Assembly (NCBI RefSeq): GCF_011405515.1
Contig: NZ_AP022671.1
Coordinates: forward strand, 4,331,501 to 4,395,500
Reading direction: 5' to 3'
Source: Nitrospira sp. KM1
GTDB taxonomy: Bacteria; Nitrospirota; Nitrospiria; Nitrospirales; Nitrospiraceae
Length of the DNA: 64,000 nucleotides
Positions within the stretch are counted from its first letter, which is position 1. Each line of letters begins with the position of its first letter. The notes beneath the pieces were generated by a model, which saw only the letters and a program-made list of their open reading frames with translations, did no database searches and had not been told where the DNA came from. A program made the translations under genes and the position numbers. Below, in pieces: positions 46,134 through 64,000 of this stretch.

Positions 46134-46356
46134 CGAGTGGATTGAGACTGCAAGTGCGTCACGCGTAGGCGCATGCGCAGATGTGTGAGAGGGACAGTCG
46201 AATTTCTACATGGGCGAGAAGGGAGGGCCTGGCATACACAAAGAATCGCAGGACGTGTCATTGGATAAGTGTGTGGAATGGGGTTAATCGAAGTACGTCC
46301 GTCGTAATGGGCGGTCAGAGAGTCGCTTACGCGGACATGAGCAAGGAGGGTTGTGT

Positions 46357-47100
46357 ATGGAACGCAATGGGTGGAAGCGCGGCGCCAAAATGCTTGTCGG
46401 AATCGCGGCAGGCGTGACGGCGCTCAGTGCCGTCGATGCCAGGGCGCTTCAATTTAACACAGGTGATCTGATGTTGGCTCTGTATGCCAACGGTCAGGAG
46501 TACTACCGGAACCTCGGGCCTGCTTCGACCGTCTTGGCTGGTCCGTTTTCCGTCGATATCAGCACCAGTTCATTGAATCCGTTGAGTGTGACCGCGGGTG
46601 CCGAACCGGTCCGCTGGTCATTGCTCAGCACTCAGGGGACCACGCAGCTCAACACGTTCATCAACACGGCCTCCCAGTTTACATCCGCCGAAATTAACGC
46701 CGCGGGCACCAATCAGGGGACCGTGGCGGTGAACTCGAATATGGCGGGATGGAGAAATGCGTTGGGTCTTGCCACAGGTCCGGGAACCGAAGCGGTGCTG
46801 GCTGCATCCAATCCTGCCTCATTCACGAGCAATTTCGGGGTGGGCGGGACATTGGGAGGCAACTTCACCGGAGCCGGCCAGCAGGGATTGTTCGATGAGA
46901 CCCTGACTATCGTGATGGCACAGGCGCGCGTGGGGACGGAATTCAACGTCCTCAGTGATGTCGGCCGTGCGGTTCTTGCCTCGAACGGTCTGCTCACCAT
47001 TACGCCTGTTCCTATTCCGGCGGCCGTGATTCTCTTCGGCACCGGCCTGATCGGGCTGGCAGGCATTGCCAGACGCGGCAGGGCGAAAGTGTCTGTGTAA
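46357..47100 (+). CDS. VPxPA-CTERM (PEP-CTERM-like) exported protein inside the TPS locus
   Basis: 247 residues. Signal peptide, a mature domain with few charges (LQFNTGDLMLALYANGQEYY), and a C-terminal sorting signal VPIPAAVILFGTGLIGLAG followed by ARRGR. Such VPLPA/PEP-CTERM tails are cleaved by exosortases; none is in the window. AAGGAGG is 7 bases before ATG 46357, whereas the frame extends to 46351. It sits between the TpsA and TpsB genes. Confidence 0.85.
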   Translation: MERNGWKRGAKMLVGIAAGVTALSAVDARALQFNTGDLMLALYANGQEYYRNLGPASTVLAGPFSVDISTSSLNPLSVTAGAEPVRWSLLSTQGTTQLNTFINTASQFTSAEINAAGTNQGTVAVNSNMAGWRNALGLATGPGTEAVLAASNPASFTSNFGVGGTLGGNFTGAGQQGLFDETLTIVMAQARVGTEFNVLSDVGRAVLASNGLLTITPVPIPAAVILFGTGLIGLAGIARRGRAKVSV

Positions 47101-47143
47101 AACAGTGTGTCGTCAACGAAGCGATTAAACAAGGAGTGTCGTG

Positions 47144-48676
47144 ATGCAATGTCTATCCACAGTTCAAGTGGGACGGTATCTCGCTGCCGCCGCTCTCACG
47201 GTTGGAGTCATCGCGCCGTCTGCGGCGCAGGCAGATATCAACATCGTCGGGTCAACTCACGGGCAGGCCTATCAAGGCGTCGCCAATCCGGTTGCGGGAC
47301 AGGCGGCGGCGTCGATTCCGCTAAGCTTGTGTGATGCGGGAGGTCCGACTCCAGAGCGATATCAGAATCTCGCGAATATTACCGATTTAACGGACCCCAC
47401 CATTCTCATCCCGGCCGGGAACATCGTGGTTTGGCGATGTACCAGAGGTGGTGTGCCGAATTTCCTGTTCCGTTACACAGGTGGATTTTCAGCCATGGCC
47501 TATAACAACGTGAAGGCTGCATTGGGCTCTCCTCAATCAAACTTCACCTCTATCGTACCGGGAGGGACGGGCTGTGTGGCCGTTGCCGGCAATCCTAAGA
47601 CGGATCCAGGAACTGGAAAACAGTACAACAGTTTCCAGAATTGTTCACAGAAGGAACTGGTCCCGGCGAATTTCGCGACTTCGGATACAAAGGGTACTGC
47701 CTTTCAGCCGACCATGTGTGACCAGAGCGGCACCTGCGCTCAGACCATTCTTGACACCGGCGTCACGTCGTTTCCGATTACGGCCACGGCCTTTTCTGTT
47801 ATCGTTGGAAACGGCGTGCAGAAGTGCGATCCGAATACAAAAGCCGCTGCAGGGAAAATTTCGCTGACCCGCATTCAGGCGGAAGCGATCTATACGGGAA
47901 CGGTTTCGTCTTGGAATCAGCTGGGTTACTGCGTATATCCCGTACAGCCGTTGAATCCGCCCGATGCGTCGTTGGGCGCCGGAGCCGGCGACATGTCGCC
48001 GATCGGCACACCGTTCAACCCGGGCATCGATCAAAGCATCGTGACCTGCTCGCGGCCGGTCGATGCGGGAACCCGCATCAACTATGACGCGATATTCCAA
48101 AAGGATGTCCGACAGATCTCCACCGGGACCATCGGTCCGCCGTTTACCGGGGATATCAATTATCTCGCGCCAACCGTTTCTGACGGATTGGCCTGTGTGC
48201 AGGGACGCTCAGCGGCTCCTGCCAGCAACGCAAATATGAACGCCATTACGTACAATCGGGCGGACGAGGCGGCAAGCCCTGTGGCGTTCGGCCTCGGTAA
48301 CGTCGGGCGTATGCGCGGCGGATACCCGGTGGCAATGGATGGTGTCCAGCCGAGCAACTTCACTGCACCGGCCGTGTTGTCCAATCCGAGCGATGCGGAG
48401 AGAGCCGCATCTCAGAAGGAATTCCGTTGCGGTCGATACATTTTCTGGGCCGACTGGGTCGGGATTCAACGCAACACGCCTGATGCCAACCAGGCTCTCT
48501 GGAACCAATACGTGGCAGGAATCGCGACTCTTCTGCCGAAAACCCAGATCGGATATTTCCACGCGAGAAACCTGCGCCAACCAGGTCAACCAGTGAATAC
48601 GGAGATGTTCGTGCAAAAAGCAGACACGAAAGGGCCGATCACCGTTAATCCTGGTGATCATCCGGCCTGCTACTGA
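47144..48676 (+). CDS. PstS-like periplasmic substrate-binding protein inside the TPS locus
   Basis: 510 residues with a signal peptide (YLAAAALTVGVIAPSAAQAD). The stretch ISLTRIQAEAIYTGTVSSWN is the typical segment of PstS-type (PBP_like_2) solute-binding proteins, though the rest is larger and cysteine-rich, with many possible disulfides. It may bind phosphate or another ligand, or be a surface protein that adopted the fold. AGGAG lies 7 bases before ATG 47144. No transporter permease genes are nearby. Confidence 0.7.
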   Translation: MQCLSTVQVGRYLAAAALTVGVIAPSAAQADINIVGSTHGQAYQGVANPVAGQAAASIPLSLCDAGGPTPERYQNLANITDLTDPTILIPAGNIVVWRCTRGGVPNFLFRYTGGFSAMAYNNVKAALGSPQSNFTSIVPGGTGCVAVAGNPKTDPGTGKQYNSFQNCSQKELVPANFATSDTKGTAFQPTMCDQSGTCAQTILDTGVTSFPITATAFSVIVGNGVQKCDPNTKAAAGKISLTRIQAEAIYTGTVSSWNQLGYCVYPVQPLNPPDASLGAGAGDMSPIGTPFNPGIDQSIVTCSRPVDAGTRINYDAIFQKDVRQISTGTIGPPFTGDINYLAPTVSDGLACVQGRSAAPASNANMNAITYNRADEAASPVAFGLGNVGRMRGGYPVAMDGVQPSNFTAPAVLSNPSDAERAASQKEFRCGRYIFWADWVGIQRNTPDANQALWNQYVAGIATLLPKTQIGYFHARNLRQPGQPVNTEMFVQKADTKGPITVNPGDHPACY

Positions 48677-48731
48677 TCGACGATCACTTCCTGGTATTAC
48701 CGGGTAAGACCACGGAGAGAGATGATTACGG

Positions 48732-48767
48732 GGTTCCGTTGCGGCGCCCATGCGTCGCAACGGAACC
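48732..48767. terminator. Strong 12-bp inverted repeat after the PstS-like gene
   Basis: GGTTCCGTTGCG (48732-48743) and CGCAACGGAACC (48756-48767) pair perfectly around 12 bases. It is 56 bases past the stop at 48676. No T-run follows, so it may be a terminator or an mRNA-end stabiliser. The rest of the 48677-49036 gap shows no gene. Confidence 0.5.
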
Positions 48768-49036
48768 GTGGTCGCAGCAGCAAGAGTGAACCTCTGGAAA
48801 CAGTCCTGACAGAGAACAGCACCTCATCAATCGTGATCCGGTCGCAAGATCCCTGTGATTGGTGAAACGCGTACGCGATTGGTGGCGGTCATTGTTAAGG
48901 GAGCGGAGCCTCATCGACAGTCGAGGCACCTCTGTTCTGATCAGAACGAACAGTCCGCTGCTTGTACCATGGAGGTTGAGCAAGTCGGTAAGAGGAACCG
49001 GTTCCTCCAGATGTGGAGGGAGCGTGAATAGGGCAG

Positions 49037-50914
49037 TTGAAACACCTTCGACAAGTCTTGGCACCAATGGGCGTTGGCGACAAGCGATGCGGTTGGAAGG
49101 AGCCGCTTGCGGTCATAATCGTGTCACTCGCCATTGCGTCTGGAATCGCTCCAGCATATGGCGAAGGTCCTGCCCCGACCGGTAAGGCATCATCCACAAC
49201 CGCAGTCCGAGCGGCGGATATTCCAAAAGCCAGCCCGTCTCGAAATGGCGATGTCAAAACAGTCGCCGCTGCCGACCGCAATACCAGCTCTTCGCGACCT
49301 TCCAAGGCTGCACCGGCGGTCAGACAGCCGGACCAGCCCGAAAGCGATGACCACGTTACGTTTACCATCAAAGATTTCTTTGTACAGGGAAACAATCTCC
49401 TGCCCCCCGAGCGCATCGATTCGTTGCTGGAACCATTTATCGGAAAGTCTCGCCGTTTCAACGACATCGAGAAGGCTCGCGCGACACTGGAGCAGGCGTA
49501 CCGCGAGCTGGGGTATCCGACGATTGCCGTCACGGTTCCGGAGCAGACCGTGGAGTTCGGGATCATCACATTGACAGTGACAGAGGGTCGACTGAAGACG
49601 ATCGACGTGACTGACAACTGGTGGTTTTCGTCCGCCTACATAAAGAACAAGCTTCCCGCGGTCAAGCCGGGAGCGCTCCTGCATGAGCCGACCGTTCTCA
49701 AACAACTGGATACTCTGAATGCCAACCCCGATCTCAAGGTCGTGCCGGTCTTGAAGACGTCCGACAATCCTGAGCAACTGAATCTTGAGCTGAAAGCGAA
49801 GGATCGGCCGCCTCTTCACGGAAAGGTCGAGTTGAACAATCGGGGTGTGCCGACGACCCCCAGGCTCAGACTGAACGCCGCGGTGCAGTATACGAACTTG
49901 TTCGACGCTGACCATGCCATCACGCTGCAGACGAGTCAAACTCCCCAGGATTGGGGCGCGGTCGAAGTCTACAGCGGCAATTACTACATACCGTTCGGCG
50001 CGTCCGAACACCAACTCGTGTTCTATGGTGCCACTGCACGCAGCCGCGCTCAGTTGGATTCCTCACCCATTCCCACGGGCGGCGGGTTGGATATTATCGG
50101 CAACTCCACCATTGCCGGGTTCCGCTACCAATTCCCGTTAGGCATGACGGGATCTTTGAGACACCAACTTTCGGTCGGGGTGGATTATAAACATCTCGGA
50201 CGCAGCAATGCAGAGCTTCCGGGTACGGGCATCAGTGTGACGGCAACCAATCCGCTCACGTATACACCGGCGTCTCTGGGTTACACCGGTCTGGCTCGGG
50301 ATGAACAGGGGTATACGAAGCTGACGGCGACAACTCGCGGCTACATTGCCGGCATCATGCCGGAAGGTGATAAAGATCATTTTGCAGGCGATCCCAACGA
50401 TCCGTTGGAAACTCCCGGATTTCGAAAGGGCTCGTCCGGATCCTTCATTGTCGTGCAGGGCGGAATTGAGCGGTATCAGGTCTTACCAGGGGATTTCGGG
50501 CTTACGGCAAAAGCCGACGGTCAATGGGTGAACGAACCGGTTGTTCCAACCGAGCAATATTTCGCGGGAGGAATGGAGTCCGTGCGTGGATACCGGGAAT
50601 TCGAAGCCGTCGGAGACAATGCCGCCCACGCGACTATCGAAGCGGTAAGCCCGGCTCTCAATAAGCTGCCGCTCGAGCATGTCAGCCGTTCGCTTCGCTT
50701 CGTGGCGTTCTATGACACGGCCTACTTGTGGATCAGACAACCTGTGCCGGGCCAAGTCGGCCATTGGTATCTCCAGGGCACCGGTGTCGGGTTCAGGTTA
50801 ACAGTGAGCGATTACCTCCGGTTCCGCTATGACGCGGCCTGGACCCTCAACAGCGGACCGTTTACCCCTGCCGGGTCCTATTACGGACATTTTTCGCTGG
50901 AGGCTGTATTCTGA
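49037..50914 (+). CDS. TpsB-family outer-membrane transporter (FhaC/ShlB/HecB-like)
   Basis: About 625 residues. A signal sequence (LAVIIVSLAIASGIAPAYG) is followed by a disordered linker and two POTRA domains (FTIKDFFVQGNNLLPPERI, then QAYRELGYPTIAVTVPEQTV). A 16-strand-type barrel follows, with its end at YYGHFSLEAVF (terminal Phe). The conserved YFAGGMESVRGYRE segment is the VRGY/F motif of the plug loop. It probably secretes the exoprotein at 41841. The start is TTG 49037 or ATG 49067; both are in frame, and ATG gives a shorter, more normal signal peptide. Confidence 0.9.
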   Translation: MKHLRQVLAPMGVGDKRCGWKEPLAVIIVSLAIASGIAPAYGEGPAPTGKASSTTAVRAADIPKASPSRNGDVKTVAAADRNTSSSRPSKAAPAVRQPDQPESDDHVTFTIKDFFVQGNNLLPPERIDSLLEPFIGKSRRFNDIEKARATLEQAYRELGYPTIAVTVPEQTVEFGIITLTVTEGRLKTIDVTDNWWFSSAYIKNKLPAVKPGALLHEPTVLKQLDTLNANPDLKVVPVLKTSDNPEQLNLELKAKDRPPLHGKVELNNRGVPTTPRLRLNAAVQYTNLFDADHAITLQTSQTPQDWGAVEVYSGNYYIPFGASEHQLVFYGATARSRAQLDSSPIPTGGGLDIIGNSTIAGFRYQFPLGMTGSLRHQLSVGVDYKHLGRSNAELPGTGISVTATNPLTYTPASLGYTGLARDEQGYTKLTATTRGYIAGIMPEGDKDHFAGDPNDPLETPGFRKGSSGSFIVVQGGIERYQVLPGDFGLTAKADGQWVNEPVVPTEQYFAGGMESVRGYREFEAVGDNAAHATIEAVSPALNKLPLEHVSRSLRFVAFYDTAYLWIRQPVPGQVGHWYLQGTGVGFRLTVSDYLRFRYDAAWTLNSGPFTPAGSYYGHFSLEAVF

Positions 50915-51597
50915 ACAGAAGCAGCAAACACCGCGGGCATTGAGGCAGGGCACAAGATGCAGAATCTTTCGTCGATCCGGATACAAGATATTTAATCGCG
51001 GGTGCAGTGAAAAACGGAGATGAGAAGTGTGTAAACTATTTGTCAAAGGTGCCACGATAGGGTTGACGGAAAAGCACGTATTGGATAAACATACGTAGTA
51101 TCGCTTCCAGACGTAGGGCGCGCTGCATCAATTGGGCGATTGTTGTAGCGGGGCGAGTCCGACGTTGAAGGAGAGCCGACGGCCGGTGCGCTCGACATCG
51201 GAGTGCCTGACCGTTGTGTCAAACCTGGTACGGACGTACCGGTCTTCTTTCAGCCAAGGACCTGTGTCATGAACCGCAGTCGCTCGCAGATTGATTCACC
51301 TATCCTCTTTCTACGAACCGGTTCCCGCCGCCGACGCGATGAACTCTCCGCAGAAGTTCCTACCCTGATATCAGGGCTCATCCATTCGATTCCACGGTTC
51401 GCGAGCACACTTGGCGCAAGGCAGCGTGCAGGCATTGGTCGGCAACTTCGCCGTCACGATGGGGTGTGCTTGACAGATGTTTCTGCTAAGAGGTTCAAGG
51501 GCCTACGGCAGAATGTCAGCAGTGCCAAGATGGTATTGCGACATGCTGATTTCCGCGCTCACGATGGAGCGCGTTTTACCATGATGGAGGTGTAACA
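50915..51597. other. Gene-free region with conserved upstream motif and structured repeat copy A
   Basis: About 680 bases. It holds TGTAAACT (51030-51037), TGTCAAA (51041-51047) and GTTGAC (51062-51067), spaced as in the region before the gene at 58092. Next come an inverted repeat ACGTAT/ATACGT (51076-51096) and structured repeat copy A (51112-51173). A perfect palindrome CCCTGATATCAGGG (51363-51376) and a shorter one around 51229-51242 lie further on. An open frame at 51203-51595 has no family or binding-site support. The region may be a long leader for the VPxPA gene at 51598. Confidence 0.55.
51112..51173 (+). repeat. Structured repeat, copy A
   Basis: A hairpin of CGCTGCATCAAT (51121-51132) with ATTGTTGTAGCG (51139-51150) and a TGGGCG loop follows GTAGGGCG. 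The segment 51148-51169 is identical to 57831-57852 in copy C. The first stem seen in copies B and C has no partner strand here. Confidence 0.65.
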
Positions 51598-52503
51598 ATG
51601 TCCAAGCAGATCATGTTGAAGAGCGTCGCGCTCGTCGCGTTGGCGCTGGGCGCACCGGTCATTGCTCAAGCGGACACGGTGACGCTCCAAGCGTGGCACG
51701 ACGCCACGATCTTTGAAAATGCCTTCCAATCTGGCGGCAACGGCGCCACGAACAGTAACGGGGCAGGCCCTGGCATCTTTGCCGGCTCCAATAGCAATCA
51801 ATCTCCGCGACGTGGCCTGCTCTCCTTTGATGTCTCCAGCATTCCAACTGGTGCCACGATCACTGGTGCTCAGGTGCAGCTAACGGTAGGTCAGATCGCC
51901 GGCTCCGGAGGTTCCGGAAGCGGCGGTGATCAACTCACGAGAACTATTGAGCTCTATAAGCTGAACACGGATTGGGGAGAGGGAACGACTGGGAACACAG
52001 CGACCATGATTGGAGGCACCGGTCAAGGGTTTCCGGGAAACCCGGGCGATGCGACATGGACGGACAACAAGCTGACCCAGAGTCAATGGACTACCCCGGG
52101 CGCATTGGGCAACACGAATGGGGTAGCGAGTGCCAGCACTCAGATTCAAGGAGGTCTTGCGGTCGGAGGCGCCCAAAACCAAACATTTACGTGGAGCTCA
52201 GCCCAGCTGGTGGCAGACGTGCAGTCATGGTTGGCTAATCCAACAAGCAATTTCGGCTGGCTCTTGAAGAATGTCGATGAAGTCGATAATCCAGCGACGC
52301 CTGCCGTCAACGAAGGGTTCCAGACGTTCCGAAGCTTCTACACCAAGGAAGGTGAGACTTTGGGCTTGGGACAGGGGCCGCGGTTGGTACTGGACTATAG
52401 TTTGGCGCCCGTACCGGTACCGGCGGCAATTTGGCTGTTCGGCAGCGGCTTGGCGGCCATGGTCGGGTTTGCGCGCAGAAGCATGAATCGCATTGCGTCA
52501 TAA
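51598..52503 (+). CDS. VPxPA-CTERM DNRLRE-domain exported protein (first copy)
   Basis: 301 residues. A signal peptide (LVALALGAPVIAQAD) leads to a DNRLRE-type beta-sandwich domain (RRGLLSFDVSSIPTGATIT, then ELYKLNTDWGEGTT and WSSAQLVADVQSWLANPTS). The C-terminal sorting signal is VPVPAAIWLFGSGLAAMVG with FARR. The domain is seen in secreted polysaccharide-related proteins. A paralogue lies at 59035. Probably surface-attached or exopolysaccharide-associated. Confidence 0.88.
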   Translation: MSKQIMLKSVALVALALGAPVIAQADTVTLQAWHDATIFENAFQSGGNGATNSNGAGPGIFAGSNSNQSPRRGLLSFDVSSIPTGATITGAQVQLTVGQIAGSGGSGSGGDQLTRTIELYKLNTDWGEGTTGNTATMIGGTGQGFPGNPGDATWTDNKLTQSQWTTPGALGNTNGVASASTQIQGGLAVGGAQNQTFTWSSAQLVADVQSWLANPTSNFGWLLKNVDEVDNPATPAVNEGFQTFRSFYTKEGETLGLGQGPRLVLDYSLAPVPVPAAIWLFGSGLAAMVGFARRSMNRIAS

Positions 52504-52518
52504 ATCATGACAGAGCAA

Positions 52519-52547
52519 GACCGGCGTTCGTAATGCGAACGCCGGTC
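52519..52547. terminator. 12-bp hairpin between two VPxPA-CTERM genes
   Basis: GACCGGCGTTCG (52519-52530) pairs perfectly with CGAACGCCGGTC (52536-52547) around TAATG. There is no T-run. It lies 16 bases after one stop and 17 before the next start, so it could act as a partial terminator or RNA stabiliser within one transcript. Confidence 0.5.
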
Positions 52548-52564
52548 GCCTCGAGGAGTCCACC

Positions 52565-53116
52565 ATGATCAAATCGATGATAGTCGCGCTTCTGTCGAGT
52601 GGCTTGCTCGGATTCATGGCGCCAATGCACTTCGCAGAGGCGGCGCTGGTGCAGTTTCAGTTCAACGGCTCACAGACGGGCAATCCTGCGGTGACCGTGC
52701 AGGCGCTGCTGGGGATCGATTCATCCCTCGTGGCGCCCAACGGCTCATTCAATCAAGCGGACCTGTCCTCTTTTTTCGTGCAATATAACGGCACGGCGTT
52801 TACGGCGTCGTCCAGCGCGCTCCCGCCGAGTCTTTCGGGACAATTCAACAATGTGGCAAGCGGATTCTCCTCGCTCTTTGCCAACGACCCGCTGACTGTT
52901 CCCGGCCATTCCGGAACCAACAATTTTCAGTTCTTCGGAGGCAATGGCCAATCGTGGGCATTCGGCGTGACCGGTCCTGCGCCTGGCCCGTTGAACGTCC
53001 AAGGAACCGGTGTCTGGATGTTGGCGCCGGTACCCATACCGGCAGCTGTGTGGCTGTTCGGCAGTGGGTTGGCCTCGATAGTCGGCTTTGCACGCCGGAC
53101 CGTGCAACAGCGATGA
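52565..53116 (+). CDS. Short VPxPA-CTERM exported protein
   Basis: 183 residues: signal peptide (MIKSMIVALLSSGLLGFMA), a small low-charge beta-rich domain (LVQFQFNGSQTGNPAVTVQA) and the sorting tail VPIPAAVWLFGSGLASIVG with FARR. GAGGAG lies before ATG 52565. No enzyme motif. Downstream of the DNRLRE gene and a 12-bp hairpin. Confidence 0.82.
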   Translation: MIKSMIVALLSSGLLGFMAPMHFAEAALVQFQFNGSQTGNPAVTVQALLGIDSSLVAPNGSFNQADLSSFFVQYNGTAFTASSSALPPSLSGQFNNVASGFSSLFANDPLTVPGHSGTNNFQFFGGNGQSWAFGVTGPAPGPLNVQGTGVWMLAPVPIPAAVWLFGSGLASIVGFARRTVQQR

Positions 53117-53701
53117 TCGAATGGGCCGACATGTTGGCTGCAGTGTAGCGCATAGACAAATCGTCAAAGCAATGAGACAAGACGGCTAGTGATCGCCGGC
53201 CGTGTCATGTGTCTGCGGAGATGGCGCGAAGAACCCGGATGTTGTAACTATCGGGGACGATGACGCTTGGATTCCGGCTGACCGTGCTCACGAGTGTTGC
53301 GGAACAGATCTTTCGTAACGGCGGCAAGGCATCAGCCGACAATGTCACCCTTACGGCAATGTCAGCGGCCGAAACTGTGATTCAGGATAGTTCATCAGTC
53401 AAAGGCATGACGCAAGTGATTATGAGGACATGTCATCGGAGTTTATCTGACGGAGACAAATGAAAAGGCGACTAACGGGCCCATCTCTTCCGATTCAAGC
53501 CAACTGCTCGAACCGTCGGGTCGATAACATTTGCAAATCGTAATAATATGGTATCACGAGCAAAGTGAAGTCTTGATTTGCCATAATGGCCGTCGCTCGC
53601 CGGCGACGGCCATTTATGTTGGGACGCATGATGATTGGTTACTGTCCTGGCCCGAACAGGATGGTGTTCGTCCAAGTGTGAATGTGCGATACATTCACTT
53701 G
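53117..53701. other. Gene-poor stretch before the remnant cluster
   Basis: About 585 bases without a supported gene. Short open frames have no binding sites or family resemblance. The only clear structure is the hairpin at 53586-53613. Confidence 0.4.
53586..53617. terminator. Intrinsic-terminator-like hairpin
   Basis: ATGGCCGTCGC (53586-53596) and GCGACGGCCAT (53603-53613) pair perfectly around TCGCCG, followed by TTAT. The T-run is short. It has no adjacent gene that it clearly ends and may be a leftover from a lost gene. Confidence 0.5.
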
Positions 53702-53784
53702 TCACTGTTGAGCGGTGTGCAGCAAATTCCGGCGAGCAAATCCAGCGATCCTCACGAGTCCACTGCTGAAGAGCCAGAGGCGGC
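53702..53784 (-). pseudogene. Remnant C-terminal tail of a VPxPA-CTERM gene
   Basis: On the minus strand the frame reads LWLFSSGLVRIAGFARR to a stop at 53702, very like the WLFGSGLxxxVGFARR tails of the intact genes. Upstream the frame is wrong (LSRR in place of VPVPAA), and a neighbouring frame reads VSASLAA, consistent with a frameshift. The rest of the gene is absent; structured repeat copy B begins 39 bases away. It is a fragment with no promoter or start. Confidence 0.55.
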
Positions 53785-53822
53785 GAGAGAGGCGCTGACG
53801 AAGCGGTCTCTCTTCATCTACC

Positions 53823-53888
53823 GTGCGCCGCATTGTTCGGCGTAGGGCGGCGCACTGCTTCGATTGGGCGATCAAGCAGCGGGGCGAG
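53823..53888 (+). repeat. Structured repeat, copy B
   Basis: Two stems: GTGCGCCGC (53823-53831) with GCGGCGCAC (53847-53855), perfect; and CTGCTTcGAT (53855-53864) with ATCAAGCAG (53871-53879) around TGGGCG, one bulged base. It ends in GGGGCGAG. It lies between two gene remnants on opposite strands. Confidence 0.65.
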
Positions 53889-53893
53889 GTCAT

Positions 53894-54015
53894 ATGAAGC
53901 TGCGCTCGGTCTTGAAGATCGTCGATGACAATACCCATATGTTTGAAATGTACGGCACCGACGATAAAAGCGGTCAGAAGCGAAGATGATGGAGATTACC
54001 TATATGCGGAAGTGA
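53894..54015 (+). pseudogene. Frameshifted C-terminal remnant of a DUF1579 protein
   Basis: From 53894 the frame reads MKLRSVLKIVDDNTHMFEMY and onwards to a stop at 53987. The continuation KMMEITYMRK with stop at 54013-54015 is in another frame, so a frameshift lies near 53980. The pattern IVDDxTHxFEMYGxD...MMEITYxRK is the C-terminus of DUF1579 proteins. The first 100 or so residues are missing and replaced by structured repeat copy B directly upstream. Confidence 0.6.
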
Positions 54016-54405
54016 TAACGCCGCCATGACGCGAACGCTATGCCTCGAGTCAGCGCATACAGGTCCTCCTCTCTTTCACTTGCGCGACTAATTGGAGATT
54101 TGACAGTATTGTGGCCGTCGTGGAGACAGCCATTGTGTTCCTGCTTGCCATACGACAAACCCACTCAAAAAATGGCGGAGGCGATAGCGGAGCGAACCCA
54201 TCGCCAGTAGTCGCAAGACTGAAGCGCATAGTGTATTCGTCGAAGAGGAAACCAGGGCGAGCATACTGGATGGATGACGGTTTCGCTGTCCCTCTTAAGA
54301 GGCATCGATCGGCAATCCTGAACATACGACTGTAGGGCCGGTTGTTGGTAGTAACACGGAAGAGACGGCCCCCAAGGAAGTTCAGTGCTTCGATTGGCGT
54401 CGAGT
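54016..54405. other. Stretch without a supported gene
   Basis: About 390 bases between the DUF1579 remnant and the small gene pair. A 125-codon minus-strand open frame (54050-54427) follows the small pair, but its composition is not protein-like and it has no family resemblance, so it is not called. No other structure was seen. Confidence 0.35.
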
Positions 54406-54546
54406 TCATCCACCGGCAGAATCCCATGTCGAGCCGTTCCAGATCTCGACTCGGCCGGATCCATCGCCGAGCTCCACCACGCGCAGCTCGAGGTCTCCGA
54501 TCTTCACCGGACCGACAATGACTCGAACTACTTGGTTATCAGTCAT
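54406..54546 (-). CDS. Possible 46-residue small protein
   Basis: The frame reads MTDNQVVRVIVGPVKIGDLE, then a Gly/Ser/Trp-rich end (GRVEIWNGSTWDSAGG). Its start overlaps the stop of the zinc-ribbon-like gene at 54539 (ATGACTGA), suggesting translational coupling. The strand-like alternation of residues is protein-like. No family recognised. Confidence 0.4.
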   Translation of the reverse strand: MTDNQVVRVIVGPVKIGDLELRVVELGDGSGRVEIWNGSTWDSAGG

Positions 54547-54787
54547 GGGGAGAGGTCGGTGCTTTGAGAATCTTAGATGAGATGGAAACTACGTCGTCCC
54601 ACAGACGTTTCAACATCAGCCGAATTATGCGTCGTTTTCTCCCAACAATCCGCTCGCCTGTTTGTCGACGAGCGAGCATCTGTTCGGCACGGCTCTTCCA
54701 CAAGCACTCTTCACAAACCTCATACCTATAGAGTGTACAGTTCAAGTGGCCACAGGTCGTACATCTGTCATGCCGGCCATTTCCCAT
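54539..54787 (-). CDS. Possible small four-cysteine (zinc-ribbon-like) protein
   Basis: 82 residues: CTTCGHLNCTLYRYEVCEEC presents two CxxC pairs, followed by a basic helical tail (RIVGRKRRIIRLMLKRLW). Start ATG 54787 has AAGGA 7 bases upstream; longer in-frame starts at 54805 and 54841 lack such a site. It could be a nucleic-acid-binding orphan. The next gene overlaps its stop. Confidence 0.45.
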   Translation of the reverse strand: MGNGRHDRCTTCGHLNCTLYRYEVCEECLWKSRAEQMLARRQTGERIVGRKRRIIRLMLKRLWDDVVSISSKILKAPTSPHD

Positions 54788-55203
54788 GTATGTTCCTTTT
54801 GACATATGTCCAGGCAATAGCTCACGGCACTCATCCGCCATCAAGAAGATGGAGAGTAAGGAAGATATGTTTCGCAACTCCATACCACGCAAGAGGGGAT
54901 GAGCGGTGAGTGCGAATTCGCGCATATAGTCCGGCACATGCGTCGTGCTGACACGTCTTCGATCATGCTTAGCACACCGAGTCGCAACCCCGGCTCGTCG
55001 ACAGTGCGACGCCATCACCCTCACCAAAGATCGCTGGCAGGAATGACCTCGGAGTGGCGCTCGGCCCCTTCTTCCTTCGGGGCATCGAAATATATGCGAA
55101 AGGGACTCGCCGATACGAGATGCTGTACAATCGCCCTCACGAGCGCGCGCCGGCCAGGTTGCCGCAGAGTCAAATGAAGGCATCTTTGAGAACGCTAAGA
55201 GTG
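54788..55203. other. Stretch upstream of the lipoprotein gene
   Basis: About 415 bases with only long open frames that look non-coding. It holds the divergent promoters of the zinc-ribbon-like gene and the lipoprotein; no convincing -35/-10 pair was seen. Confidence 0.3.
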
Positions 55204-55839
55204 ATGAAGCAACTTTTGTCCGGTTTGGTTGTGGCAGTCCCAATAATCACCGGGTGTGCCCTCGGAGATGAGAAGAAACCGGCCTCTACAGCGGAACCAG
55301 TTATGGCGTACTTCTGGGTCGGAGATCCGTTGCGGATCCCCTTGAACCGACAGTTTGACCAAGATAAGTATGCCTGTTTGGATGATTACCGGAGTCTGCA
55401 ACCAGTTGTACCGCCAACACGCGACATCGTCACAGAGCTGCGCATGATGGATGTGCACCAGCACGAATGTCTGGCCAGTAAGGGGTGGGAACTCAGGCCG
55501 ACCAATGCGTCACAGAAGACGGAACCGCAGCATGTGCCGCCTGCCCGACGACCGATTGCCTCCATTGCCAAAAAAGACGCTCAGACAACACGGCGCGATG
55601 AATCGCTGCAGACATACCTCCCAAATTTTATCTGGGCGGGAAATCCCGCGGATGAACCTTCAAGCGAGAGGTTTCACAGCTACGCCAATACATGTACTCA
55701 GTATGCGTTAGACAGGCAACAATATCCGGAGGTCAATCCAGAGGCTCGATATTACTTAACTGGGTACATGGACGATCTCTCGATCTGTTTGAACGGGTAT
55801 GGCTACAGGGCGGAGCCGGTAAAGTCAGCGGTTCGATAA
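55204..55839 (+). CDS. Lipoprotein with repeated Cys-containing segments
   Basis: 211 residues. The signal MKQLLSGLVVAVPIITGC ends in a lipobox. The mature part has two similar blocks (YFWVGDPLRIPLNRQFDQDK with KYACLDDYRSL, and NFIWAGNPADEPSSERFHS with ANTCTQYALDR). Each has a later cysteine (HQHECLASKGWEL and LSICLNGYGYRAEP), a likely internal duplication. ATG 55204 fits the lipobox best; ATG 55174 is possible. Function unknown. Confidence 0.65.
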   Translation: MKQLLSGLVVAVPIITGCALGDEKKPASTAEPVMAYFWVGDPLRIPLNRQFDQDKYACLDDYRSLQPVVPPTRDIVTELRMMDVHQHECLASKGWELRPTNASQKTEPQHVPPARRPIASIAKKDAQTTRRDESLQTYLPNFIWAGNPADEPSSERFHSYANTCTQYALDRQQYPEVNPEARYYLTGYMDDLSICLNGYGYRAEPVKSAVR

Positions 55840-55868
55840 TAGCATGGTGAACAAAACAGGTTGACAAG

Positions 55869-55924
55869 GGCCCTTCGCGATCTCCTCAGGAAGTCCAAGG
55901 AGAAGGGCCATGCCAAGTAAATGA
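55869..55924 (+). promoter_or_regulatory. Leader hairpin and four-codon mini-frame before the MarR gene
   Basis: GGCCCTT (55869-55875) and CTCC (55882-55885) can pair with AAGGGCC (55903-55909) and GGAG (55899-55902), occluding the binding site AAGGAG (55897-55902). That site serves a mini-frame encoding MPSK (55910-55924), whose stop overlaps the MarR start as ATGA. The layout looks like an attenuation or coupling device. Confidence 0.45.
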
Positions 55925-56286
55925 CCGTTACCATTTCGTCTCATTCCCGGCTGACATCGCTAGAACTCGTCTTGAAGCTCAACGGAGAGTACCGCTCGCG
56001 GTTGCGGGCATTGGGCCTGACCCAACTCCAAGCTGGCGTGCTTTTGTATGTACAACGGAATAATGGTACTCCGATAGTCAAGACGGCTATGGCATTGGCC
56101 ATAGCACCCGCAACGCTATCAGAGGTACTCAGCCTCCTTGAGAAGAAACGACTCCTCAAGCGGCAAGCAACTGGTACAAATAGGCGCTTCTGCCGACTCA
56201 TCCTCACGACCCAAGGCCAAGCTGCCGCCCTGCGCGTCCATAAAAGAATTCAGAATATCGAAGTTCAAGTGAATCTAGCAGGTTGA
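55921..56286 (+). CDS. MarR-family transcriptional regulator
   Basis: 121 residues with a winged helix (LGLTQLQAGVLLYVQRNNG, then TAMALAIAPATLSEVLSLLE and KRLLKRQATGTNRRFCRLIL, the wing). Shorter than typical MarR proteins (140-160), with reduced dimerisation helices. It probably binds DNA as a dimer; ligand unknown. Start ATG 55921 overlaps the mini-frame stop. The neighbouring genes are orphans, so the target is not evident. Confidence 0.8.
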   Translation: MTVTISSHSRLTSLELVLKLNGEYRSRLRALGLTQLQAGVLLYVQRNNGTPIVKTAMALAIAPATLSEVLSLLEKKRLLKRQATGTNRRFCRLILTTQGQAAALRVHKRIQNIEVQVNLAG

Positions 56287-56505
56287 TGAGCTAACAACCC
56301 TTTTTGAGAATTAGGCCGGTCCTGCAGACACCAGATGCGCCGGCCCATCCAGGGATGGAGCAACTATTCGCCGCAATAAGAGTGAGCCGTGGATGCACCG
56401 CCATGGCTGCCGAACGACACAGTGGGCGCTGGTTTTTACGAAAATGTAACGTACAAGCTGCACTAGGGGTTTCTTTTAACGCCTGGCCGCCTCTACAGTC
56501 TTTCC
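56287..56505. other. Stretch after the MarR gene
   Basis: About 220 bases with no convincing gene; one open frame here (56304-56603) has no family support and overlaps the small protein at 56506. Confidence 0.3.
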
Positions 56506-56685
56506 ATGGAGACCGACGACAGGAAGCAGTTAGTCAGCAACTTCATCAAGGCCACGGAATCGCTGCAACGGTATATCCATACGTGCGGGGATCTTCCGGG
56601 TAGTGAAGAAGATGCCATCCGGTACATGAGTCTCACCATGTTAATTACGATGAGGGCGTTGCGCTCGAGGAATGTGGCAAGTTAG
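56506..56685 (+). CDS. Possible 59-residue helical protein
   Basis: The frame from ATG 56506 to TAG 56683-56685 reads METDDRKQLVSNFIKATESL, then QRYIHTCGDLPGSEEDAIRY and a C-terminal helix (LTMLITMRALRSRNVAS). Charge and hydrophobic spacing look helical and protein-like. No strong ribosome-binding site and no family recognised. Confidence 0.4.
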   Translation: METDDRKQLVSNFIKATESLQRYIHTCGDLPGSEEDAIRYMSLTMLITMRALRSRNVAS

Positions 56686-56696
56686 CTCTTCTTCGC

Positions 56697-57176
56697 ATGC
56701 CCCATCACGACACTATGGTGGAGTCCGTGTCCCCCAAGATTTACAACGACGAATGGCTATCCCCAACAACCACTTCATTATGCCCGGCACTTTTCCCACT
56801 TACCGTCGCGCTGCTGCTTATCCATACCAGCGTCTATGGAGAATGGACTGAACTCGTGAGCAGCAGCAACGAGATCCTGACCATCTATGCGGACAAGGAC
56901 ACGATCGATCGTAACGAGAATCTTGTGAAGGTCTGGCAATTGTTTGACTTTAAAACCACTCAGACGTCGGGAGGCAAACCGTATTTGTCGGTGAAGATGC
57001 ACAATGAATTTGATTGTGGAGGACTTCGGAGCTGGATACTCTCACTCGCTCAGTTCTCCGGCAATATGGGCAGCGGGAAGGAACTGTCTCAGGACTCACG
57101 CGAACAGCAATGGGTAAGTGGTCAACCGGCTTCTCTCGCCCGCATATTGTTGACAATCTTCTGCGACAAGAAATGA
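56697..57176 (+). CDS. Exported surface-adhesin E-like protein
   Basis: 159 residues with a hydrophobic export segment (LFPLTVALLLIHTSVYG). The mature part has the pattern EWTELVSSSNEILTIYADKD, then LVKVWQLFDFKTTQ, HNEFDCGGLRSWILSLAQF and a final cysteine (LLTIFCDKK), as in the small surface-adhesin protein E family (two Cys forming a disulfide). It begins 11 bases after the 59-residue frame. Confidence 0.6.
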   Translation: MPHHDTMVESVSPKIYNDEWLSPTTTSLCPALFPLTVALLLIHTSVYGEWTELVSSSNEILTIYADKDTIDRNENLVKVWQLFDFKTTQTSGGKPYLSVKMHNEFDCGGLRSWILSLAQFSGNMGSGKELSQDSREQQWVSGQPASLARILLTIFCDKK

Positions 57177-57348
57177 AGCGCAGCGAAAGCATCCGTCGTT
57201 GTTTCTACCGCCGAACACCTTCTTGGCGTCGTTCCTTGAATATGGGCATAGGTCGAATCTTCAAAAAGCAACCCCTCAAGTGTTGAGGCTGCAGAAGCGA
57301 TCGGTTCGCCTCCTCGGGTCATCCACCTAAATTAAAGGGTGAATGCGC

Positions 57349-57555
57349 TTATCGCTGCCCAGACTTGCCTGTACTAGGCCTGCGGTTGCCTAGAAGCGAT
57401 CTGAGGTGATCGCTGGAGACTCGTACGAACGATCGGTGTCGTTTCGCGGGTGCTCGATCAAATCCATATTCAAGATAGAGGAGCCCGATCAAAATAAGCA
57501 TGCCCACCGATGCGCCGAGAACTGCCACCACCGCAAAGAAGTCATCCAAGGTCAT
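57349..57555 (-). CDS. Possible small single-helix membrane protein
   Basis: 68 residues: MTLDDFFAVVAVLGASVGML begins the transmembrane segment, followed by a basic cytoplasmic tail (APAKRHRSFVRVSSDHLRSL). Start 57555 is chosen over a longer frame to 57636. No family recognised. Confidence 0.4.
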   Translation of the reverse strand: MTLDDFFAVVAVLGASVGMLILIGLLYLEYGFDRAPAKRHRSFVRVSSDHLRSLLGNRRPSTGKSGQR

Positions 57556-58091
57556 ACGCGTAGCCACGATGGAAGGGTGAAGCACGTTCCCGGATCTTGA
57601 GGCAATAGAGTAGGTCAATCCTGAGGCGGCATTCAAGTCGAGAATTACGTATTGGCCTGATCACTCTCCACCCCCGGTACATGAATGATATGAAGGGAGC
57701 GTATAGGACCGCATTAGAAAATTGTAAACTCTTCGTCAAATGGCTGTTTAGAGTTGACTGAGACCTGCATTTCCCTCTACGGTGCGCCGCATTGTTTCGG
57801 CGTAGGGCGCGCTGCTTCAAATACGGAGCAGCGGGGCGAGTCCGACGTTGAAAGAGACGATGACGTGTTCCTGGGCGGGAAGGTCATCGGTGTAACAACC
57901 TGACCTCTTTCACGACGGTCCGTCATGTTAAGCATCGGCATCCGTCCCTTCACACACTTCCGTTCATCCTCACAACTGATCCTCTCGCCTCGACTAGCGC
58001 CTCTGCGAACAGTTTTATTCTGCGTATCATGCAATCGGGAAGTTTCGAATTCAGATCACAGTCTGCTCGCCATTATCACAAGGAGTACGTT
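57556..58091. other. Region upstream of the propeller-like VPxPA gene: conserved motif and structured repeat copy C
   Basis: About 535 bases. TGTAAACT (57723-57730), CGTCAAA (57734-57740) and GTTGAC (57753-57758) match, in order and spacing, the motif before the 51598 gene. Structured repeat copy C (57782-57852) follows, then about 240 bases of leader that contain only short frames. Together they look like a promoter and long structured leader for the gene at 58092. Confidence 0.5.
57782..57852 (+). repeat. Structured repeat, copy C
   Basis: Stem 1: GTGCGCC (57782-57788) with GGCGCGC (57806-57812), one G-U pair. Stem 2: CGCTGCTTC (57810-57818) with GGAGCAGCG (57825-57833), one G-U pair, around AAATAC. 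The two stems share three bases (57810-57812), so they may be alternatives. 57831-57852 is identical to copy A. Confidence 0.65.
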
Positions 58092-58934
58092 ATGAATAAA
58101 TCTTTTGCTTTACTTGCAGCTCTCGTGATTGGAACCACAATGCTGCCTGAGCCCGCATCGGCCGCGACCATGTATGCGGTGGGATTTAGTGACACCAACA
58201 GCCCGGTCTATACCATCGATACGGTGACCGGGACGCAAACATTGTTGGGAAATTCCGGCATTGCGCAGTTGAACTCTTTGGCTATGTCGCCTTCCGGAGT
58301 CCTGTATTCCGCAAACATGAATCAGCTCGTCACCATCGATCTAACGACGGGAGTGGCCACACCCGTGGCCACGATGACTACTGGAACGGCGCAGACCAAT
58401 ATCCGGTCGATAGCCTTTAACGATGCGGGGACGTTGTATGCCGTGAATCAGCCGGCTGCAGGAATGTCACAATCCGGTACGGGGCGGCTGTTTACCGTGA
58501 ATACGACGACAGGAGCGACAACCCTGATTGGTGGCACTGCACAGATGGTCCAAGGCCTGGACTTTGCCCCAGATGGGACATTGTATGGCGTATCGCCGAC
58601 GGTAGCTGGTGGTACTTCAGCGTCTAGTCTGATGACCATTAACCCAGCCAGTGGCGCTTTTACGAATGTAGGAGCGACCTTCACCAACACATTTGAAAGC
58701 ATCGCCTTCGATCCTAGCGGGATTCTGTGGGGCGTGGAAACCGGTGGCGCAAGCGGCCAACTCTCCATCTTCAATCCCACGACCGGCGCCCGCCCGCTGA
58801 TGTTTAGCACTGGCTTGGATCCCAATCTTCGCGGCATCGAATTCGCTGCGGTTCCCGTACCAGCGGCCGTGTGGCTGTTCGGCAGCGGCATGGCAGCTAT
58901 GGTGGGATTCGCTCGGCGACGAGCGAACCACTAA
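58092..58934 (+). CDS. VPxPA-CTERM exported protein with propeller-like repeats
   Basis: 280 residues. Signal peptide (MNKSFALLAALVIGTTMLPE), then repeats of the form LYAVNxxxxxLFTVNTTTGATTLIG and FDPSGILWGVET, a beta-propeller-like layout similar to DUF4394-type domains, and the tail VPVPAAVWLFGSGMAAMVG with FARRR. AAGGAG precedes ATG 58092. A related gene starts at 63497. Confidence 0.85.
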   Translation: MNKSFALLAALVIGTTMLPEPASAATMYAVGFSDTNSPVYTIDTVTGTQTLLGNSGIAQLNSLAMSPSGVLYSANMNQLVTIDLTTGVATPVATMTTGTAQTNIRSIAFNDAGTLYAVNQPAAGMSQSGTGRLFTVNTTTGATTLIGGTAQMVQGLDFAPDGTLYGVSPTVAGGTSASSLMTINPASGAFTNVGATFTNTFESIAFDPSGILWGVETGGASGQLSIFNPTTGARPLMFSTGLDPNLRGIEFAAVPVPAAVWLFGSGMAAMVGFARRRANH

Positions 58935-59034
58935 ATCAAGTGACAGAACGCTTACTAATGAAGTTGCGGGAATGAAGATAATAAACGCCGCCCCGTCAGA
59001 AGATTTGGCATTCAATCGCAAAGGAGAGAAAACC

Positions 59035-59868
59035 ATGCGGCACCACCTGTTGAGTCTCTTCGGCATGCTGGCCATCACGGTCATCGTCGCTGCCCCAGTG
59101 GCGGCGGATGTCGTCACCATCGGCTCCTCCCATGACGCGACGATTTTTCAAAATAACGTGAATAACAGCAACGGCGGCGGTCCGGGAATCTTCTCAGGCG
59201 GCAACGGGGCCAATTCGGCTCGACGCGGCCTCATCAGCTTCGATGTCGCGAGCGCCGTTCCGGTGGGTGCCACAATCACCGATGTGACGATGACGCTCGT
59301 GTTGGGCCAATCGGCCGGTTCAGGCGGACAAGGCGGCGGTGGAGATTCCGTACCCCGTTTGATTTCGTTGTATGCCCTGACCAGCAATTGGGGCGAAGGG
59401 ACGACACCGGTGAGTGCCACGATTGGCGGGACGGGGCAAGGCGTGTTGGCAGGGCTAGGCGATGCGACCTGGAATCAAAACCAGTTTGGCATCACGAATT
59501 GGACCACACCCGGCGGCGATCGCGCCGCAACTGCGAGTGCGAGTCTGCTCGCCGATAATCGGTTTCAAGGCCAATACATTTGGGGTTCGACGGCGCAGAT
59601 GGTAGCCGATGTTCAAAACTGGCTTAACAATCCGTCCAGCAACAACGGCTGGGAGATGATCAACACCGACGAGAACGTGCAGTCGTTCCGTGCCTTCTAT
59701 ACGAAGGAATGGAGCGATCCCAGCATGCGGCCACAACTGAGCATTACCTATCTGGCGCCGGTGCCGGTCCCGGCGGCGCTGTGGCTGTTCGGAACCGGGC
59801 TCGCGACGGTCGTCGGGCTTGCCCGCAGGAGGATTCATTCGGCGGGTAGCGGAGAAATGAACGCCTGA
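59035..59868 (+). CDS. VPxPA-CTERM DNRLRE-domain exported protein (second copy)
   Basis: 277 residues, a paralogue of the 51598 gene (RRGLISFDVASAVPVGATIT, then LYALTSNWGEGTTPVSATIG, TAQMVADVQNWLNNPSSNN). Sorting tail VPVPAALWLFGTGLATVVG with LARRR, plus a longer C-terminal extension than usual (HSAGSGEMNA). AAGGAG lies 9 bases before ATG 59035. Probably surface-exposed. Confidence 0.87.
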   Translation: MRHHLLSLFGMLAITVIVAAPVAADVVTIGSSHDATIFQNNVNNSNGGGPGIFSGGNGANSARRGLISFDVASAVPVGATITDVTMTLVLGQSAGSGGQGGGGDSVPRLISLYALTSNWGEGTTPVSATIGGTGQGVLAGLGDATWNQNQFGITNWTTPGGDRAATASASLLADNRFQGQYIWGSTAQMVADVQNWLNNPSSNNGWEMINTDENVQSFRAFYTKEWSDPSMRPQLSITYLAPVPVPAALWLFGTGLATVVGLARRRIHSAGSGEMNA

Positions 59869-59947
59869 CGAACTAGATCGGGTTTGCATTGACACGTGGC
59901 CATTACCGGCACCCAACACAGGCCCCCTTCACAGAGGAGAATCACTT

Positions 59948-61615
59948 ATGATGCCAGCCGTTCGTCTCAGTATCATCGTCAGTCTTGCAGTTATCGGAAC
60001 ATCCATGCCGATCGCCCATGCCGCGATTGTCGGCACCGGAGATGTCACCCCGATTGATCCGTCAACCTGGACGAGTACCACGTTTGCTGTCGTTGGCAAT
60101 ACGGCGAATGGCAGCGTGTTGGTCGATGGAGGATCTGACATTGTTTCCGGGCACACGCAACTCGGCCAAAGTGTCGGCGTCACAGGAACGATCACGATTG
60201 ACGGTGCCGGGTCAACGTGGACCCGCACCGGCGGCCAGACCAACGTGGGCGTCGCCTCAGGCGCGACCGGCATCCTTAACATTCGCAACGGGGCCATCGT
60301 GACCGACACTTCTCTCATCTTCGTCGGTCAGGCCAGTGGGTCAGCTGGCATGCTCAACATCACCAACGGGGGATCGCTGACTGGCCGGGGGGTGATCGCC
60401 AGTAATGCTGGCGCGACCGGCACCGTGACGGTGGATGGGGCAGGGTCGCAGTGGGTTACCAGTGGCGCACTCATCGTTGGGTCACAAGGCCGGGGCCTTC
60501 TCTCGGTGACCAATGGGGGCGCCCTGACGTTTACCAGTGCGAATGGGCTTATTATCGCCGGCAGCGGAGGTGGAACAACCGCCGGAAGTCGCGTCATGGT
60601 TGACGGGCCAGGGTCAGTCATTACGGGGGGTAGGTTGACGATTGCGTCAGGAACCACCACCGGCATCATGACCGTCACGAACGGCGGCAAGGTCAGCACG
60701 GTAGGGGACGCAGTCTTAGGGAACGCCAATCCCGCTGCCGTCGCCACAATGTTCGTCAACGGTGCGGGCTCTGAGTGGACCAACACCGGCAACTTGAGCA
60801 ACGGCAACCCCGGGAGTGGCCGGTTGAGCGTCACCGATGGCGCGAAGGTGAGCGTGAGTCAGTTGACCATGAATGCCCCGTCCATTCTCACCACGGACCT
60901 CGGGACCGGCAGTTCCGTGACCGTCGGCAGTGGCACAGGGACCCTCATCAATATCGGTACGATCCGCATGGCCGCCCGGGCCGATGTGGCCAACGGCACC
61001 TATGCGCCGATCGCGGCCGGCGCGTGGGCGGTAGGCGTGGGGGCCGTGCAAGCCTTAGGCGGTGTCTACAATCCCACGACCCATGCAGTCACGGTCTCCA
61101 CGGCCGCGACCGGGCAGGCAGGTGTCGCCGCCACTATCGACCTATCGCACACGCAGCGCATCTTGATCACGGATGGCGCGACTGGCAAGCAAGTCGGCGC
61201 GAGCTTTCAAGCGGCGATTGCCCCGGCGAATCTCAGCTTGACGGCCTCGCTGATGAACAATGGGCAGTTGAGTCTGCTGCAGGGATTACTCGATCCTGGT
61301 AAAGCCATCTTGAGCGGATGGGATTTTTCGGCGACCGGCTACACGGCAGGAGATCCGGTCTATCTCTCGCTCCAGATCGGTGCCGACCAGAAGTTCTATG
61401 ACCTCGATGTGTGGCACTACGATGGGACAAGCTGGGCGAAATATCTCAACACCGATTTTGCCTACGACAATAATTTTGCGAGCTTTGTCGCGACTGGATT
61501 CAGTGGCTACGCGATTAGCGGATTAGCGCCGGTGCCAATTCCCGCTGCGATATGGCTGTTCGGGAGTGGGCTGGTCAGTGTCGTAGCGTTTGCCCGTCGG
61601 CGTGCAGCGATCTGA
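59948..61615 (+). CDS. VPxPA-CTERM protein with T5SS/PEP-CTERM repeats (first copy)
   Basis: 555 residues. Signal peptide, then repeats of the type VTVDGAGSQWVTSGALIVGS / GLLSVTNGGALTFTSANGL (TIGR04393-like), forming a beta-helix; a C-terminal domain (KAILSGWDFSATGYTAGDPV, YLSLQIGADQKFYDLDVWHY) and the tail VPIPAAIWLFGSGLVSVVA with FARRR. GAGGAG precedes ATG 59948. Bases 61184-61456 are nearly identical to the next gene. Confidence 0.87.
   Translation: MMPAVRLSIIVSLAVIGTSMPIAHAAIVGTGDVTPIDPSTWTSTTFAVVGNTANGSVLVDGGSDIVSGHTQLGQSVGVTGTITIDGAGSTWTRTGGQTNVGVASGATGILNIRNGAIVTDTSLIFVGQASGSAGMLNITNGGSLTGRGVIASNAGATGTVTVDGAGSQWVTSGALIVGSQGRGLLSVTNGGALTFTSANGLIIAGSGGGTTAGSRVMVDGPGSVITGGRLTIASGTTTGIMTVTNGGKVSTVGDAVLGNANPAAVATMFVNGAGSEWTNTGNLSNGNPGSGRLSVTDGAKVSVSQLTMNAPSILTTDLGTGSSVTVGSGTGTLINIGTIRMAARADVANGTYAPIAAGAWAVGVGAVQALGGVYNPTTHAVTVSTAATGQAGVAATIDLSHTQRILITDGATGKQVGASFQAAIAPANLSLTASLMNNGQLSLLQGLLDPGKAILSGWDFSATGYTAGDPVYLSLQIGADQKFYDLDVWHYDGTSWAKYLNTDFAYDNNFASFVATGFSGYAISGLAPVPIPAAIWLFGSGLVSVVAFARRRAAI
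61184..61456 (+). repeat. 273-base near-identical block, copy 1
   Basis: Matches 62981-63253 with about five differences (98% identity) although the flanking parts of the two genes differ clearly. It encodes the C-terminal domain before the sorting tail. Confidence 0.85.
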
Positions 61616-61693
61616 ACTCGCAGCGACCGAGATGACAATAGATAGGCGAAAGAATTCTCTCTGTTCGATTAGGCGAGTCATGAGGAGGATAAC

Positions 61694-63421: not shown

Positions 63422-63496
63422 CGAGGATAGGTAGCATTTCATTGATCAGAGTATACGAAGTATAGGCAATCTGTGTTCGACAGAAAGAGGTTTGGT

Positions 63497-64000
63497 ATGT
63501 CGCTCAAACATGTCTGGCTTGTTCTCGTGGGTGTGTTGGCCACCATTCCAGTTACCGATGTGAAGTCCGTCCTGGCAGCAACCATGTACGCCGTCACCGA
63601 CGGCTGTGGACGGAACGCATGCGTCCCTGCAGCCAACGGTGTCGGCCGGCTCTTGGCCATCGACACGGTCACAGGAGTCCAAACGGTCATCAGTAACGAC
63701 CTTGGGACCGGCCCCTTGCAATCTTTGGCTGCCATGCCGTCCGGGCTCATGTATTCCGTCTCGCTCACGGGCCTGCTGATTGCGATCGATCCATTCACCG
63801 GCACCGCCACGAATACGGGGACCCGCCTTATCACGCCGGCGCCCCTCTATGCCCTGGCCGCGAATGCCAATGGGGAGTTGTATGGATTGGCCGGAGATGG
63901 ACTGGCGGGGACGCCTCAGCTCTACAAGATCAATCCCGCCACCGGGGCGACCTTAATCGGCGATTTGGGAGCCGGTAGGGGCGGCGCGGCTATGGATTTT
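63497..64000 (+). CDS. Exported propeller-like protein, truncated by window end
   Basis: 168 residues to the edge, no stop. Signal peptide (MSLKHVWLVLVGVLATIPVT), then the same kind of repeats as the gene at 58092 (LLAIDTVTGVQTVISNDLG, then LYALAANANGELYGLAGDG, LYKINPATGATLIGDLG). AGAGG precedes ATG 63497. A VPxPA tail is expected beyond the window. Confidence 0.8.
   Translation, partial: MSLKHVWLVLVGVLATIPVTDVKSVLAATMYAVTDGCGRNACVPAANGVGRLLAIDTVTGVQTVISNDLGTGPLQSLAAMPSGLMYSVSLTGLLIAIDPFTGTATNTGTRLITPAPLYALAANANGELYGLAGDGLAGTPQLYKINPATGATLIGDLGAGRGGAAMDF

Follow-up and report, generated by a model that had tools for sequence, protein, structure and literature searches.

A probable dead leader of VPxPA-CTERM genes joined to two gene relics in Nitrospira sp. 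KM1

In the genome of Nitrospira sp. KM1, a short structured repeat, here called copy B, is fused on either side to the remains of a gene. Copy B is probably a dead, doubly truncated cis-regulatory leader of VPxPA-CTERM (exosortase-target) genes that was left by illegitimate recombination, a reading that we hold with considerable confidence. Since the repeat is a damaged copy of a leader, the best explanation of the junction is ordinary genome decay between two surface-protein operons. The window that we analyzed is the whole stretch of 64,000 nucleotides at positions 4331501-4395500 of a single-contig genome of 4.51 Mb, and within it the copy B locus is flanked by two groups of VPxPA-CTERM genes. 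The features of this locus are as follows (window coordinates).

53702-53784, minus strand: 3' end of a decayed VPxPA-CTERM gene, from the WLF part to the stop, identified by its frame and by profiles of the genome's own tails.
53779-53795, no strand: junction between the VPxPA relic and the leader relic, bounded by the end of the profile alignment at 53778 (envelope to 53795) and the start of the leader model at 53796.
53796-53889, plus strand: copy B, a truncated leader with part of the -35 region, the 5' half of the outer stem and the inner hairpin, matched by covariance model R1.
53884-53889, no strand: junction between the leader relic and the DUF1579 relic, from a comparison of the leader copies, the G001 gene and the window.
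53885-54015, plus strand: DUF1579 gene, 3' end only, frameshifted by one base, from 86% DNA identity to an intact gene of genome G001 and a sub-threshold Pfam match.

The first-pass annotation had placed a VPxPA-CTERM tail on the minus strand and a frameshifted DUF1579 C-terminus on the plus strand, and both are genuine relics without their N-terminal parts. The minus frame has its stop at 53702 and looks like the end of a VPxPA tail. We built DNA and protein profiles from 14 VPxPA tails of the same genome; the DNA profile matches positions 53778-53721 on the minus strand (E 7.2e-8) and the protein profile matches the frame (E 6.7e-7). With both profiles the relic ranks directly after the seven intact tails of the window, and the next matches have E values of 0.044 (DNA) and 0.22 (protein). 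Homology begins at the WLF part, and the VPxPA motif itself is lost. Profile searches had been proposed as the check on both assignments, and for this relic their outcome was divided: the own-tail profiles match, but the frame has no match in Pfam or NCBIfam and stays below the cut-off of TIGR03370 (VPLPA-CTERM). The fragment corresponds to the 3' end of such a gene but is truncated and under the curated cut-off, so its homology is taken from the own-tail profiles.

On the plus strand, PF07617 (DUF1579) matches the relic at E 0.0018 with 18.6 bits, short of the gathering score of 25.2; this fragment is again the 3' end of such a gene, but truncated and frameshifted. Because the Pfam score is below gathering, the homology is taken from an intact 195-codon homologue in G001, a genome of the same genus, which is 86% identical in DNA across window positions 53885-54017. 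The window has one base fewer than the G001 gene, hence the frameshift, and about the last 43 of the 195 residues are retained. Mapping where homology to an intact gene ends, as the first-pass annotation had suggested, located the junction: identity starts at 53885, and at the switch the leader copies read GCGAG followed by TCCGACG, the G001 gene reads CGCG followed by GTCATATG, and the window reads GCGAG followed by GTCATATG, with one or two shared bases at most. A region near the intact G001 gene matches our genome at 2.87 Mb, about 1.5 Mb from copy B. Of the missing part of the DUF1579 gene nothing was found apart from a 65% paralogue (at 4286444); the relic is therefore displaced and its present setting is not ancestral. 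Copy B does lie at a recombination junction, as had been proposed. Both junctions are tight; most of the 38 bases reported between the VPxPA tail and the repeat are leader sequence, since the R1 match begins at 53796.

Model R1 was built from three intact leaders of the same genome (A, C and D). These leaders, and the genes behind the two that lie in the window, are listed here.

51026-51182, plus strand: leader A, intact (box with TTGAC at 51031-51067, folded RNA), built into R1.
51598-52503, plus strand: VPxPA-CTERM gene behind leader A (TIGR03370 27.4 bits, cut-off 25.35).
52565-53116, plus strand: second VPxPA-CTERM gene behind leader A (TIGR03370 21.6 bits, below the cut-off; assigned by text pattern).
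57719-57863, plus strand: leader C, intact, without the GGGCG loop (box at 57724-57758), built into R1.
58029-58934, plus strand: first VPxPA-CTERM gene behind leader C (TIGR03370 25.7 bits).
Genome positions 4396394-4396560, about 1 kb past the window, same strand as the VPxPA-CTERM genes: leader D, intact, built into R1.

In leaders A, C and D, a GTWAA-N6-GTCAA box and a TTGAC element precede a folded RNA; the order is box TGTAAAYTMTTYGTCAA, TTGAC, core and GGGCGAGTCCGACGTTGAA. The flanks of the core can pair as an outer stem (ACGU-A-GGG with UCC-G-ACGU), and the core is a variable stem with a GGGCG loop that is found in A, B and D and is absent in C. Copy B matches R1 in part, with 26.0 bits (E 0.001 over 84 kb), starting at model position 38 and without a real match to the 3' end of the model. 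On the scale of the whole genome this is a weak match (E 0.056 with R1, and 0.28), and the intact copies of the genome score 107-174 bits. The nearest relative of copy B is C (71%). It has lost the promoter box and everything from the 3' half of the outer stem onward, including the third hairpin, and no VPxPA gene lies on the plus strand between copy B and leader C. With the box, the complete outer stem and the target gene all missing, copy B is a relic. It keeps a nearly intact inner hairpin and the TGAC of the -35 region, as a copy that still functions might, for instance as a small RNA or as the leader of a new downstream gene; given the parts that are lost, the missing VPxPA gene and a reading direction that leads into a frameshifted gene scrap, we consider continued function very improbable. 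A 9-base inverted repeat inside copy B (53823-53855) was rejected as a feature, as it occurs once in the window and lies outside the conserved fold. Just ahead of the locus, a strong hairpin at 53585-53625 (GGCCGTCGCTCGCCGGCGACGGCC), with an 85% match at genome position 3970742, is possibly a terminator remaining from the decayed region.

We searched for the leader with R1 in 175 genomes of the family Nitrospiraceae (our genome and 174 others, including six others of its genus). Five further copies were found in 4 of the 174 other genomes, so that the leader occurs in three genera when our own is counted: one each in G053 (E 2.2e-17), G084 (4.5e-9) and G013 (0.0075), and two in G085 (9.1e-15 and 1.4e-13). 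The remaining 170 of the 175 genomes, including all six others of the genus, gave no match. A second model, R2, was built from the eight intact copies (A, C and D plus the five in four other genomes) and recovered the same set of copies; its low E-values for these eight arise by construction. Extending the search to 395 genomes of the phylum added two matches in two genomes, with E values of 0.06 and 0.07, and a scan of a contig collection for the exact 22-base leader pattern returned one locus, on a Nitrospira contig equal in length to the G085 contig recovered above. The repeat also had sequence matches in G001, G002 and G003, which were dismissed as chance, all being short and inside coding sequence. 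Our genome has only the four copies A-D, all inside a stretch of about 14 kb. Exosortase genes are common, being present in 115 of the 175 family genomes (with two in our own), which makes the system much more widespread than the leader. One carrier, G013 (99% complete), has a leader and a VPxPA-like gene and yet no match to the exosortase model TIGR02602.

All eight intact leaders lie in intergenic DNA and are followed on the same strand by genes with VPxPA-like tails. The first gene passes the NCBIfam VPLPA-CTERM cut-off in three cases (A, C and the first of G085) and falls under it in two (G053 and the second of G085); in the other three (D, G084 and G013) the tail is recognized by text pattern only. 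The likely start codon follows the end of the model after about 70-90 bases for four of the leaders; for the others the distance is about 165 (C), 390 (D), 415 (A) and 735 (second of G085).

Several observations concern the neighborhoods of these genes. A two-partner secretion pair (a protein with a filamentous-haemagglutinin-type N-terminus and a ShlB/POTRA transporter) occupies window positions 41841-50914, directly ahead of the VPxPA cluster. Within the cluster, the genes at 59948-61615 and 61694-63421 carry T5SS/PEP-CTERM-associated repeats, and a 300-base direct repeat (61046-61345 and 62843-63142, 85% identical) links these two neighboring VPxPA genes, which suggests duplication or gene conversion. 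In G085, G084 and G013 the leader has a GspC-type gene on one side (a family call made for the G085 gene only) and, on the other, a VPxPA gene whose product has a molybdopterin oxidoreductase-like domain. A similar GspC-type/VPxPA pair is found in our genome at 4404774-4408136, with a box-like sequence between the genes and weak model matches only.

The position of copy B had been taken to support mobility of the repeat or a role as a breakpoint hot-spot. A small mobile element of the REP or MITE type inserted at copy B, or a hot-spot of recombination, would have broken both genes, and several stem-loop copies are indeed present in one genome, with copy B at a double junction. The other copies contradict this: across three genera all eight intact ones are intergenic and head VPxPA-type genes in the orientation of the gene, and those of our genome are confined to about 14 kb. 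When we checked whether other copies also lie at breakpoints, as had been advised, 0 of the 8 intact leaders abutted a broken gene in the ORF lists; copy B alone lies at a gene break because it is the broken copy. No convincing target-site duplication was found, the flanks sharing only words of 5-6 bases within 30 bases, and no trace of a transposase turned up when the 4.6 kb around copy B (53117-57720) were compared with Pfam in six frames. In these 4.6 kb, which separate the two gene groups, Pfam matched only an Adhesin_E gene and, weakly, a frame of the MarR type. The marks of a REP or MITE, namely dispersed copies, target-site duplication and a transposase trace, were not found. Homology across the family also includes the promoter box, which copy B, taken as an insertion, does not carry. 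We therefore regard insertion or a hot-spot as very improbable, and extending the inference from copy B to the leader family is not supported.

The intact leader appears to be a control element of a type not yet described. Its first part is most likely a promoter region with a site for an activator, as position and conservation indicate, and its second a 5' RNA fold that, on the basis of covariation, most likely tunes expression. In leaders A, C and D alone, 96.9% of the cells pair and 6 of 22 pairs have changed on both sides; shuffles reached these pairing and covariation values in 2 and 4 of 500 cases, and slid versions were only 32-64% paired. Among the eight intact copies, in an alignment fitted to the structure, 92.4% of the cells pair, 9 of 22 pairs have changed on both sides and 0 of 500 shuffles equal this. 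On an independent alignment, RNAalifold recovered the inner hairpin and not the outer stem, and paired the GTTG segment differently. The third hairpin has a mean z of -2.07 over the eight copies, versus -1.02 to +0.59 at eight later offsets, and that of C is no better than shuffles. Folding energies of single sequences are unremarkable (z -0.5 to -1.5). Six T come after the third hairpin in G053, as in an intrinsic terminator, a run that is absent from the other copies.

The conserved feature might act as double-stranded DNA, that is, as operator palindromes rather than RNA, for the box and the TTGAC form an inverted GTCAA...TTGAC and the RNA stems are also palindromes in DNA. On the gene strand, however, the paired cells include 21 G-U and 5 A-C combinations, an excess which an operator does not require and which indicates that the strand of the gene is the folded strand under selection. 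The stem sequences also vary freely while the pairing is retained. We find an operator without an RNA role improbable.

The box with TTGAC occurs five times in our genome, always within 36 kb of the cluster, and has an exact match in 2 of the 174 other genomes. Boxes at 4400789, ahead of a VPxPA gene, and at 4418744 score 18.6-19.5 bits with R2 and were for that reason not counted as leaders. We also rejected a hairpin with a GGGCG loop ahead of another VPxPA gene at 4406909, since four such hairpins were found and about five are expected from shuffles. A sigma-70 promoter scan gave no plus-strand match at A or C. None of the 4227 Rfam models matched at gathering, and none at E values up to 10 over positions 50800-64000.

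As we picture the intact leader, transcription would start in a promoter region with the GTWAA-N6-GTCAA box and the TTGAC, and would yield a structured 5' untranslated RNA with an outer stem, an inner hairpin (usually with the GGGCG loop) and a third hairpin. A regulator may bind the box and switch on the surface-protein operons, and the RNA fold may then tune the message after initiation, by acting on translation, on stability or on read-through. At copy B, the leader core would have been joined to the displaced 3' end of the DUF1579 gene by illegitimate recombination that involved little microhomology or none, while the other side was presumably joined to the inverted VPxPA tail and the operon formerly headed by copy B disappeared; we infer the order of these events.

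The closest known case is the proteobacterial PEP-CTERM system. Haft et al. 2006 (PMC1569441) describe PEP-CTERM genes of Proteobacteria with long upstream intergenic regions that contain a conserved 17-base motif (motif 1) ending in TTTACA, a sigma-54 motif (GG-N10-GC) about 63 bases past it and the response regulator PrsR, with the upstream motifs common to Proteobacteria only. Long intergenic regions ahead of exosortase-target genes are shared with our leaders. The resemblance of the boxes is partial: the reverse complement of the box in A, C and D is a 17-base word that ends in TTTACA, as the text description of motif 1 does. The differences from that system are that the leader box is reversed relative to the gene, that the boxes of the other genomes carry GTTAA and not GTAAA, that a folded RNA follows the box and that the host is not proteobacterial. 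A common sigma-54 site was rejected, as GG-N10-GC is at no shared position among the copies and is missing from two. Among the window proteins scanned for PrsR, that of 33202-34617 scores 396 bits on TIGR02915, below the cut-off of 502.6. The literature that we searched on PEP-CTERM regulation, RNA motifs and Nitrospira holds no description of the leader.

Structured 5' leader RNAs also include riboswitches and attenuators. Our leader resembles them in its 5' position, its conserved loop, its stems with compensatory changes and its placement at the head of operons, but it lacks an Rfam match, and a terminator-like hairpin with a T run is found in the G053 copy alone. The intact leaders could belong to a class of sensing RNA that has yet to be described, either riboswitch-like or protein-bound, and could control the exosortase-target surface proteins of Nitrospiraceae, with copy B as a fossil of that class. 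As the switch, the conserved GTTGAA would leave the outer stem and pair with the first part of the third hairpin, a pairing that RNAalifold favors. We put this forward tentatively, as a rather unlikely but conceivable extension.

For copy B itself, the dead leader remains our preferred reading, and its junction is diagnostic: it does away with the idea of a mobile repeat and indicates the identity of the repeat. With the intact leader, a regulatory element of exosortase-target proteins becomes open to testing outside the Proteobacteria.
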